From Thermoactinomycetaceae bacterium (GTDB lineage Bacteria > Bacillota > Bacilli > Thermoactinomycetales > Thermoactinomycetaceae), in contig JANWIG010000058.1 in the NCBI GenBank assembly GCA_025449975.1, forward strand, positions 1-64,000: 64,000 bases of DNA, written 5' to 3'. The position numbers and the translations under genes were made by a program. Positions 17,150 through 37,072 of this stretch are shown one piece after another. Within the stretch, counting starts at the first letter, position 1; every line of letters begins with the position of its first letter. The notes beneath the pieces were generated by a model. The model saw nothing but the letters and a program-made list of their open reading frames with translations, was not told the DNA's origin and did no database searches.

Positions 17150-17445
17150 AAAATCCAAAAAAACTCTTTTCGCCTCAAAGGACGAAAAGAGTTTCGCGGT
17201 ACCACCTTTGTTAACAAAGAAAGCATTCTTTGTTCACTCTTGACCTGTAACGTAGGCTGACGGCTCCAACTACTAATCGAGAATTTATATGAACCTGACG
17301 TTGGCAGGAGCAACTCGGGAGCTACATTCAACAGGTACAGCCCGAAGAATCTCACAGCTATCAACGGATCATTGATAGATTCTTCTCTCTGAGGGTGTAA
17401 TAACTGTCTACTCTTCTCCGTCAGTGCTTTTCTCAATATGAAAAA
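17150..17445 (-). promoter_or_regulatory. T-box leader of valS
   Basis: On the minus strand the conserved T-box AAAGGTGGTACCGCG lies at about 17197-17214, preceded by a stem I region with the AGTAGA motif near 17410 and a GAATGTAGC loop near 17325 in which GTA is a valine codon (likely specifier). A perfect terminator hairpin (17158-17194, AAACTCTTTTCG with CGAAAAGAGTTT then TTTTTTT) follows; the T-box competes with it when uncharged tRNA-Val binds. Confidence 0.9.
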
Positions 17446-17739: not shown

Positions 17740-17765
17740 GATAACGAGCCAATCGAATAGATCTT

Positions 17766-17858
17766 CTGGGGAGCTGGAATTTGGGCCGGCTGAGAGTGTA
17801 TACCGAAATATACTGACCCATTGGACCTGACCTGGGTAATGCCAGCGTAGGGAGAATT
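17766..17858 (+). promoter_or_regulatory. TPP (THI-box) riboswitch
   Basis: The conserved GGGGAGC, CTGAGAG, ACCTGACCTGGGTAATGCC and AGCGTAGGGA blocks are present in order. It precedes the thiY-like gene. Ten bases of the aptamer (17827-17836, CTGACCTGGG) are exactly complementary to 17889-17898 in the downstream terminator, giving a plain antiterminator switch. Confidence 0.95.
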
Positions 17859-17879
17859 TTGCTTTATTATGCTTACAAG

Positions 17880-27107: not shown

Positions 27108-27199
27108 GGTGATATTCCATAGACAAACAGACAGATATCTCTTTTAAAAAGACATCCGCTTTGACTACCACCTCCCTATCGACCGTAGGTTCACTGGTG

Positions 27200-27375
27200 A
27201 TGCGCAAACAGGCAGGTCTCCTGGCTTATGATCATCGCTTCTTACGTCTTCCCATTTCGCTAGAAATAGTGACATCGTGTAAGTCGCTCCCATTTACAGT
27301 GGCGGGACCGCTCCGGACTTGCACCGGTATTCCCTTTTCACACTTCGATTTGAAGTGACCTGTTTGATCAAGCTA
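27200..27375 (-). promoter_or_regulatory. Cobalamin (AdoCbl) riboswitch
   Basis: On the minus strand the aptamer landmarks occur in order: ACCGGTGCAAGTCCGGAGCGGTCCCGCC (27301-27330 region), CACTGTAA, and the closing AGCCAGGAGACCTGCC at about 27209. It precedes the cbiMNQO operon, so B12 should shut off cobalt uptake. Confidence 0.93.
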
Positions 27376-27422
27376 TTCATTTTTACATAGTTATTATCTC
27401 TCTCTCCTACTCTACTATATTT

Positions 27423-34181: not shown

Positions 34182-34212
34182 GTTTGTTCTACAAACTAGT
34201 TTATATTTATTA
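34182..34212 (+). repeat. Inverted-repeat element, copy A
   Basis: GTTTG-TTCTA-CAAAC followed by TAGTTTATA. It shares the bases CTAGTTTATA with copy D. A weak TTGTTC-N17-TTATTA promoter would straddle it. Confidence 0.6.
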
Positions 34213-34530: not shown

Positions 34531-34555
34531 GTTTGCAATACAAACTGATTTGAAT
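34531..34555 (+). repeat. Inverted-repeat element, copy B
   Basis: GTTTG-CAATA-CAAAC followed by TGATTTGAAT. This is the most divergent copy downstream of the palindrome, and no good -10 box follows. Confidence 0.5.
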
Positions 34556-34844: not shown

Positions 34845-34875
34845 GTTTGTGGTGCAAACTAATTTATGATATTTA
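34845..34875 (+). repeat. Inverted-repeat element, copy C
   Basis: GTTTG-TGGTG-CAAAC followed by TAATTTATGA. TTGTGG-N17-TATTTA gives a possible sigma-A promoter spanning the repeat, 125 bases before the Gly-rich protein gene. Confidence 0.6.
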
Positions 34876-35000: not shown

Positions 35001-35228
35001 ATGTTAGAAATTTTTATCATTGCCATCATCATTGCTGGTGTTGCATATTTTGTTGTTAATAAAAAGCGTTCGACGAAAAAGACCTCTCCTCGTAAAAAAA
35101 AGTACAGATCAACTCCTCCTCCCATCTGGGACTACTCGGTTAAAGGAGAAAACAGCAGTACGAATGATAGCGGTAGTGGAGGAGACGGCGGCAGCAGCGG
35201 TGGTGGAGATGGTGGCGGAGGCTTTTAA
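35001..35228 (+). CDS. Small single-span membrane protein with Gly/Ser-rich tail
   Basis: 75 residues. A membrane helix (LEIFIIAIIIAGVAYFVV, residues 2-19) is followed by a strongly basic stretch (NKKRSTKKTSPRKKKYRS), then PPPIWDYSV, and a tail made almost only of Gly, Ser and Asp ending GGGGF. AAAAAGGAG precedes the ATG. Not recognised. The positive-inside rule places the basic part and tail in the cytoplasm. It is preceded by copy C of the repeated element and followed by a strong terminator. Confidence 0.65.
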   Translation: MLEIFIIAIIIAGVAYFVVNKKRSTKKTSPRKKKYRSTPPPIWDYSVKGENSSTNDSGSGGDGGSSGGGDGGGGF

Positions 35229-35243
35229 AAACGGTAAAAAAAT

Positions 35244-35297
35244 AAAAACCATCTCTTCCTTATAATCCATTAAGTAATTGGAAGAGATGGTTTTTTG
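35244..35297. terminator. Bidirectional terminator between Gly-rich gene and 48-residue protein gene
   Basis: AAAACCATCTCTTCC and GGAAGAGATGGTTTT form a perfect 15-bp stem around a 20-base loop, T-rich on both strands. Confidence 0.8.
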
Positions 35298-35314: not shown

Positions 35315-35461
35315 CTATTCAAAGAGTTGTCCAATAAAAGTAGAACCCATGTCATGAACGGTATTTGCTACTTCCGTCGTTGCTTCCACTGCCACCTCTG
35401 CTACTTCGCCAATCGAATTAGTGGTTAACTCCATCAACTCACCCAAAAGCTGACCAAACAT
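35315..35461 (-). CDS. 48-residue acidic amphipathic protein, paralogue 1
   Basis: MFGQLLGELMELTTNSIGEV is followed by the shared core AEVAVEATTEVA and ends FIGQLFE; the whole protein is 48 residues. GGGGAGG lies just ahead of the ATG. It is 34/48 identical to the protein at 36541-36687, with only conservative changes, and about 16 of the identical codons differ silently, which is strong evidence for selection on the protein. It has no signal peptide or hydrophobic span; a long amphipathic acidic helix is predicted. No function is known to me. Confidence 0.75.
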   Translation of the reverse strand: MFGQLLGELMELTTNSIGEVAEVAVEATTEVANTVHDMGSTFIGQLFE

Positions 35462-35800
35462 GTTCCTCCCCTCTCTCCAAAAATCATATTATAATATCGA
35501 ATCATTGGATTGATCAAAAAACTAAATAACTATACTTTTATTCCACTTTTATCTTATTTTTAAACATATTTTCTTAAGGATTCGTCATCTAAATCTTGAA
35601 TGATCACTATTTATACACCTCTTTGATCTTTTATTCCATTATTCTAAATCATCGATAGATATGAGGTTATATTCTTCTATCGATGAAGTAATGTTAAACA
35701 CAAAATAGAAACTATTAAATTTAAAAAGAATCCATTTGAAATATTGTGCTATATATTTTATTTTGTTAGAGTTAAGCTGATTAATGATCTACGAGGTGCT
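35462..35800. other. AT-rich intergenic region
   Basis: About 340 bases between the divergent 48-residue protein gene and the lipoprotein gene. It must hold both promoters. I see no RNA motif or copy of the repeated element in it. Confidence 0.35.
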
Positions 35801-36331
35801 ATGATGAAAACACAAACGCGTACCTACAAAGTTCTCCATCTTGTTCTTTTCTGTTTTGTTTTCTTCATTGGATGCACAGATTCTCCTCGTTCTGCGCCTG
35901 ATCTGCAACCTTCTACAGAAGAAAAACGAGCTACTCCAGAGAAACGAGAATTAATTCGGGTGGAAGCGGAAAGACATGATAAGATTCGGTCTGAATTTTG
36001 GCATCACAGCAAGGCCGTATTTTTAGAAATGGTGGAACGGGTAGACGCTGTCAAAGCTGGTGGAGATTATAACTTTGACTTTAAACTATACGATGCATGG
36101 AAAACGCAATGGCTTGATGATGATTCTTTGACACTAACCTTAGAGGAGCTAGAACTAAGAAAGGATCTAACCCAATTGAATCTTTCATCCATGGAGTATC
36201 AATTTAAATTAGACGGAGTTGTATTAGGGGAAGAATTCGAAGATTATGATAAGAAAAGCACAGAAGAAGCTGAATCAGAGTATGAACGCGATAAAAAGAA
36301 ATTAGAAGATCTGTTCTATAAGTGGAAATAA
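35801..36331 (+). CDS. Predicted lipoprotein of unknown function
   Basis: 176 residues. A basic start and hydrophobic stretch lead to the lipobox FFIGC (Cys25, counting from 35801), so it should be an exported, lipid-anchored protein. The mature part is hydrophilic and mainly helical, with an acidic C-terminal coiled-coil-like end (STEEAESEYERDKKKLEDLFYKWK). CGAGGTG precedes two adjacent ATGs (35801, 35804). No family recognised. It sits between the two 48-residue paralogues. Confidence 0.7.
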   Translation: MMKTQTRTYKVLHLVLFCFVFFIGCTDSPRSAPDLQPSTEEKRATPEKRELIRVEAERHDKIRSEFWHHSKAVFLEMVERVDAVKAGGDYNFDFKLYDAWKTQWLDDDSLTLTLEELELRKDLTQLNLSSMEYQFKLDGVVLGEEFEDYDKKSTEEAESEYERDKKKLEDLFYKWK

Positions 36332-36455
36332 GAGGCGTATATATTACGCTTTTTTTATTTGAACCAGACCGTTTCTAATTTTGTTTTCATAATTAAAAAT
36401 CATCTGAATTATCCTAAAAACATCCGTGACTCCTACGAATAGATCAAGGAACGGC

Positions 36456-36498
36456 AAAACCATCCCTTTTGCTCATCGATCCGAGGGATGGTTTTTTA
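36456..36498. terminator. Terminator between lipoprotein gene and paralogue 2
   Basis: AAAACCATCCCT and AGGGATGGTTTT form a perfect 12-bp stem with T-rich flanks on both strands, mirroring the arrangement after paralogue 1. Confidence 0.75.
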
Positions 36499-36540
36499 GC
36501 TATCCTATCTTTCTCCTATCACTATATAAACCTATAAATC

Positions 36541-36687
36541 CTATTCAAAAATTTGTCCAATAAAGCTCGTTCCCATATCATATGTGGTTTCAGCCACCTC
36601 TGTCGTTGCTTCGACGGCTACCTCGGCAATCTCTCCTACTGAACCAGTAGCTACTTCCATCAAATCAGCAAATAGTTGCCCAAACAT
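36541..36687 (-). CDS. 48-residue acidic amphipathic protein, paralogue 2
   Basis: MFGQLFADLMEVATGSVGEI is followed by the core AEVAVEATTEVA and ends FIGQIFE; exactly the same length as paralogue 1. GGTGAGGGG lies just before the ATG. The constant N-terminus, core and C-terminus, with changes such as Glu/Asp, Ile/Val and Ser/Thr elsewhere, point to a constrained amphipathic structure. Both copies lie on the minus strand, each just after a bidirectional terminator. Function unknown. Confidence 0.75.
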   Translation of the reverse strand: MFGQLFADLMEVATGSVGEIAEVAVEATTEVAETTYDMGTSFIGQIFE

Positions 36688-37031
36688 GCCCCTCACCCTT
36701 TCCTTTGGATGCCCCTATACTTATAAAATAATTTTATAGCTTTAAAAAATAAAACATCTATTTTATCTTTCCACTATCTAGCTAACTTCAAACCCAATCT
36801 ATGATAATCTTTTTTTCGCTCGACTGAATTCGTCATTGTTTGCCTACCATCTGGAAATATATAAAAATTCAGACATAATTTAGATAATTTTTAACCCTTT
36901 GGGGCTGCAGGACTTTTGGTATATTGAATATAGTTTGTGATGCAAACTAGTTTATATTATAAAGATGCTAGTTGCCTCGCTTGTTTTAAGGCACACAGCG
37001 ATTTACGGTGAAGGACTGTTCCCCATTAAAA
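36688..37031. other. AT-rich intergenic region with repeat copy D
   Basis: No gene is supported. Copy D lies at 36932-36963; downstream there is a small hairpin (TGCCT-N11-AGGCA near 36975) and then the terminator of the convergent gene. Confidence 0.4.
36932..36963 (+). repeat. Inverted-repeat element, copy D
   Basis: AGTTTG-TGATG-CAAACT followed by AGTTTATATTATAAA. This is the clearest promoter-like copy: TTGTGA-N17-TATAAA spans the repeat, so the palindrome would occupy the -35/-10 spacer. Confidence 0.65.
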
Positions 37032-37072
37032 AGAGAAGATATTCGTCTCGCTTTTCGACGAATATCTTCTCT
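37032..37072 (-). terminator. Terminator of the YdhR-like gene
   Basis: AGAGAAGATATTCGTC and its complement form a perfect 16-bp stem, followed by TTTTTAA on the minus strand. Confidence 0.8.

Follow-up and report, generated by a model that had tools for sequence, protein, structure and literature searches.

A genus-restricted family of 48-residue acidic proteins with a predicted hendecad helix in Thermoflavimicrobium

Organisation of the two genes and their surroundings

The window, that is, the whole stretch of 64,000 nucleotides analysed from a Thermoactinomycetaceae bacterium, carries two small minus-strand genes that each run from an ATG to a stop codon and encode a protein of 48 amino acids (Table 1), in line with the preliminary description of this DNA. 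The two products are identical at 34 of 48 residues, and 17 of the shared residues were counted to use different synonymous codons, close to the earlier estimate of about 16. Across the coding sequences, 41 of 144 positions differ between the paralogues, with 10, 4, and 27 differences at the first, second, and third codon positions, respectively. The paralogous DNA repeat extends over 157 nt (72%), covering the ORF together with the ribosome site and little more. An in-frame GTG is located three codons upstream of the paralogue 2 ATG; the ATG is favoured as the start, because all three homologues (see below) are then exactly 48 amino acids long.

The 48-residue proteins carry a net charge of -8 or -9 with at most one Lys/Arg (0-1), and no signal peptide was seen in their sequences. 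They had been described as acidic, amphipathic, and lacking a signal peptide or membrane span; neither signal peptide nor span is apparent, and, as a correction, their GRAVY values lie above zero (+0.22 to +0.46), which marks them as hydrophobic for proteins so acidic.

Table 1. Features at and around the two small genes (window positions).
Feature	Position	Strand	Basis
48-aa acidic protein, predicted single helix, paralogue 1	35315..35461	-	ORF and homologue comparison, AlphaFold
48-aa acidic protein, predicted single helix, paralogue 2	36541..36687	-	ORF and homologue comparison, AlphaFold
Sigma-A-like promoter TTGATC-18-TATAAT, -10 box 26 nt before paralogue 1 ATG	35488..35517	-	Motif; such sites not above chance in the region
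Purine-rich ribosome site GAGAGGGGAGGAAC before paralogue 1	35462..35475	-	Read from sequence
Purine-rich ribosome site AAAGGAAAGGGTGAGGGGC before paralogue 2	36688..36706	-	Read from sequence
Terminator hairpin with a perfect 16-bp stem and T runs on each strand, serving paralogue 1 and the YxzE-like gene that converges on it	35244..35295		Stem and T runs
Perfect 12-bp hairpin AAAACCATCCCT/AGGGATGGTTTT downstream of paralogue 2	36456..36495		T run of 6 T on +, 4 T on -
Neighbour, 75 aa, N-terminal hydrophobic segment, Gly/Ser-rich tail	35001..35228	+	Sub-threshold Pfam YxzE, 39.3 bits vs cut-off 40
Neighbour, putative lipoprotein, 175 aa, without known family	35804..36331	+	Translation and family search

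Vegetative expression by sigma-A may be presumed from the promoter-like site suitably spaced upstream of paralogue 1, with the reservation that sigma-A-type sites in the region are no more numerous than in shuffled sequence. Both genes had earlier been said to follow a bidirectional terminator. The hairpins are present, and each comes after the stop codon, so that each gene leads into its hairpin; the first is a strong bidirectional terminator, and the second, with only four T in the direction of the small gene, is a weak one on that strand.

The convergent neighbour of paralogue 1 resembles YxzE, a Pfam family labelled "putative bacteriocin", and within the bacterial family this gene is present in this genome alone. 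The putative lipoprotein has a weak paralogue in the same genome (25% identical; L022, C65), and the remaining 22 genomes of the family yielded none. Because both neighbours are confined to this genome within the family, a linked function with either of them was rejected. A ydhR-type monooxygenase gene is a further neighbour in the window.

Distribution and conservation of the family

A homologue search, as the preliminary description had proposed, led to the identification of one homologue in a sister species of the same genus, Thermoflavimicrobium daqui FBKL4.011 (NZ_KZ845663.1, 730,946 bases), where an unrelated locus encodes a 48-residue protein that shows 67% identity to one window protein and 71% to the other. 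The three sequences are approximately equidistant (71-76% DNA identity), suggesting that the gene may have duplicated at around the time when the two species diverged. The remaining genus genome (G022) lacked a homologue, leaving the family in two of the three genus genomes, and searches of further genomes from the family, order, and class detected none. Within a class sample of 399 genomes, only the two window copies matched. T. daqui was the sole match among GTDB genome contigs, a GTDB contig scan with a single query sequence returned nothing, and weak profile matches elsewhere in the order (E 0.015-0.53) fell mostly within long frames and were taken as chance. A mobile or phage origin was also rejected, as viral contigs, phage records, and plasmid records contained no homologue and the dispersed 22-nt repeat of the window (described below) is not near the T. 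daqui copy.

The T. daqui copy sits between a convergent M15-peptidase-like gene with a peptidoglycan-binding region and a divergent excalibur-like LPxTG-type gene, with a serine recombinase gene nearby; these names were read from translations, not obtained from database searches. No neighbour is common to the window and T. daqui loci, and because the context differs between the two species, each copy is regarded as a stand-alone gene that points to no partner. A conserved gene context was further rejected from the argH-LOG interval, which in both relatives holds other genes without a homologue: a phosphatase-like gene in each, accompanied by a peptide-transport operon in T. daqui and by one other small ORF in G022.

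Chance was excluded as the source of the conserved frame, because none of 20,000 neutral simulations, each applying as many random substitutions as separate the real sequences, gave an open frame at the observed amino acid identity in any of the three pairs; for the two paralogues, the frame stayed open in about 19% of the simulations, and the observed identity was never reached (0/20,000). An RNA element was discarded as a candidate, since no credible Rfam family was detected in the region. The dN/dS comparison that had been suggested for the paralogues was run on that pair and on the pairs with T. daqui (NG86), giving dN of 0.17-0.22, well below dS of 0.8-2.9, in all three; dS is close to saturation and imprecise for such short sequences, and the codon-position pattern is alike in each pair. 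The genes are thus under purifying selection in all pairwise comparisons, which bears out the selection on protein sequence claimed earlier from synonymous codons. In total, 27 of 48 columns are invariant among the three homologues.

Pfam, NCBIfam, and PADLOC returned no match to the 48-residue proteins, which also do not match the model of the YxzE-like putative bacteriocins (PF25184). In PHROGs, one of the three members weakly matched phrog_9123 (residues 5-41, E 0.013), a group without assigned function; this likeness to one member only is most likely compositional. The best matches in a PDB profile search were low-scoring and mostly designed helical proteins (E 0.015 or worse). Identity with a known family was therefore rejected, and no published description was found in a literature search that covered related themes. 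Given the third homologue, the purifying selection, and the absence of any wider or library match, we conclude that the proteins form a real, constrained, genus-restricted orphan family, upholding the earlier proposal of an undescribed small-protein family. The family is ordinary in kind, and its distinctive trait is the hendecad helix.

Predicted helix and eleven-residue periodicity

One continuous helix spanning residues 2-47 was predicted by AlphaFold2 for the monomer, from an alignment of three sequences (mean pLDDT 79.7, pTM 0.39). Mean hydrophobicity shows a single clear periodicity, with a spectral maximum at 97.5 degrees, corresponding to 3.69 residues per turn (hendecad, 98.2 degrees), and with an amplitude of 0.387 compared with 0.108 at the heptad angle, and a fraction of only 0.0002 of shuffled sequences matched the peak amplitude at any angle. 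The best hendecad a/d/e/h register places a at residue 6 (core minus rest 0.85; shuffle fraction 0.0002), and heptad a/d registers are not significant (0.64). A quindecad register scores as well (0.0036), which makes the lack of a heptad more certain than the precise length of the repeat. Split into blocks of eleven beginning with residue 2, the sequence of a window protein is FGQLFADLMEV / ATGSVGEIAEV / AVEATTEVAET / TYDMGTSFIGQ / IFE. Core positions are no more conserved than the rest (9/17 versus 18/31), which suggests that the outer face of the helix is constrained too.

An 11-residue repeat with hydrophobic residues at a, d, e, and h has been described as the hallmark of right-handed hendecad coiled coils (PMC6131620), and this pattern was found in the 48-residue proteins. 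The periodicity, absent from the preliminary description, points to helix-helix packing. The family is alike in repeat length and a/d/e/h core to the ATP synthase b-subunit stalk, tetrabrachion, and Arabidopsis MOM1 CMM2, the last of which contains four consecutive hendecads within a dimeric coiled coil (PMC3276543), the same number as in the 48-residue proteins. Unlike those examples, which are segments of larger proteins, the repeat here makes up the whole protein, and no sequence homology to hendecad coiled-coil proteins has been established.

Possible functions

We favour the reading that each protein is a free-standing, strongly acidic amphipathic helix built on a hendecad repeat that associates with itself through its hydrophobic stripe, and we put the probability of this reading at roughly one half, or slightly below. 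The stripe at a, d, e, and h (F/V/T/G; L/I/V/F; M/A/A/I; F/A/A/T/I) would pack the helices into a straight or right-handed bundle, either as homo-oligomers or as hetero-oligomers of the two paralogues, while Glu and Asp, mostly at c, f, and j, would face the solvent and keep the assembly soluble. Oligomerisation is suggested by the periodicity together with the charge, and a cytoplasmic location is probable in view of the missing signal peptide. The assembly might be structural, act as a scaffold, or modulate a partner. In a bolder version, which we regard as quite unlikely, the four-hendecad proteins would form a thermostable right-handed bundle or filament in which the paralogues alternate, serving as a lineage-specific structural or surface-active material in Thermoflavimicrobium. 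Should self-assembly prove true, the family would offer very small natural proteins consisting entirely of hendecad repeats, a simple system in which to study right-handed coiled coils and to design proteins in a thermophile; failing that, it would add to the lineage-restricted small proteins that length cut-offs and family libraries overlook.

The proteins could instead be leaderless exported amphipathic peptides, comparable to staphylococcal PSM-beta or leaderless bacteriocins and working as a surfactant, a biofilm or aerial-growth factor, or against competitors. PSM-beta peptides are 43-45 residues long, negatively charged, and folded into three helices (PMC10778951), and in S. capitis they are encoded in multi-gene loci, with the neutral peptides being more active (PMC5585272). 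The 48-residue proteins are similarly short, acidic, and amphipathic, lack an apparent signal peptide, and occur as several paralogues per genome, a likeness that is not specific; their positive GRAVY and high amphipathicity also fit, as does the convergent YxzE-like neighbour just under the bacteriocin family cut-off. By analogy, a PSM-beta-like way of working is possible. However, hmmscan gave no match of the 48-residue proteins to the PSM-beta (Staph_haemo) model PF05480 (cut-off 25 bits) at E<=10, and scanning this genome and that of T. daqui gave matches elsewhere only, at chance level (11 bits; E 0.96 or worse); membership was therefore ruled out, and the resemblance is one of analogy only. 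In addition, one continuous helix is predicted, albeit from a shallow alignment, rather than the V-like three-helix shape of PSM-beta, the genes are separate transcription units whereas those of PSM-beta form an operon, and the family is strongly acidic, unlike PSM-beta. A charge of this size is also unlike that of antibacterial peptides, and no export, immunity, or modification gene was recognised adjoining any copy. We consider this secreted-peptide explanation unlikely.

Rather than packing against one another, the helices might act like SpoVM, attaching within the cell to a membrane or another lipid or protein surface and serving in the spore envelope or in the sensing of curvature. The 11-residue periodicity also occurs in lipid-binding helices of the alpha-synuclein and apolipoprotein type, so it is by itself no proof of oligomers, and the chief other role for the hendecad stripe would be lipid binding. 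The amphipathic helix extends over the full length, and the organism belongs to a spore-forming family. Small SpoVM-type spore proteins are likewise amphipathic helices in spore-formers, but the charge here is opposite to what membrane binding needs, and the family is not conserved among spore-formers. The membrane-surface interaction raised in the preliminary description is still conceivable, yet disfavoured, because a helix at -8 or -9 with no more than one Lys/Arg should be repelled by anionic bacterial membranes. Its suggestion of a spore role found no specific support: only loose matches to sporulation promoters, differently placed among the copies, were seen and none was convincing, and paralogue 1 has a good sigma-A-type site, such sites being not above chance. 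As homologues are absent from G022 and all other family genomes searched, the protein is no core spore protein. Intracellular surface binding is held to be quite improbable.

Lastly, the size, acidity, and stand-alone genes recall many small modulators and the sequence is constrained over its whole length, so that small regulators or antitoxin-like partners capping a hydrophobic surface of another protein might be envisaged, but no partner gene is common to the window and the T. daqui locus and PADLOC gave no match; this reading is likewise held to be quite improbable.

Other elements in the window

A dispersed 22-nt element, GTTTGTDNTGCAAACTARTTTA, was observed at 34182-34203, 34531-34552 (a weaker copy), 34845-34866, and 36933-36954 (+) of the window. 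It consists of two overlapping palindromes, AGTTTG-n5-CAAACT and AAACTAGTTT. With up to two mismatches, six copies were found in this genome, four in T. daqui (G021), and nine in G022, and a reversed control pattern gave none. Several copies lie 25-100 bp past the stop codon of an opposite-strand gene, and one G022 copy is within the matching argH interval. The element may be an operator, a promoter, or a mobile-element remnant. About 80 nt downstream of the copy at 36933, just past the ydhR-like gene, a perfect 16-bp inverted repeat, AGAGAAGATATTCGTC, with a 9-nt loop (37032-37072) could be a terminator or the end of a short transcript.

Three regulatory RNA elements were noted elsewhere in the window: a cobalamin riboswitch (27194-27378), a T-box leader (17175-17433) ahead of a valyl-tRNA-synthetase-like gene, and a TPP riboswitch (17757-17870) ahead of a thiamine-precursor-type uptake operon, the latter two gene names being taken from translations.
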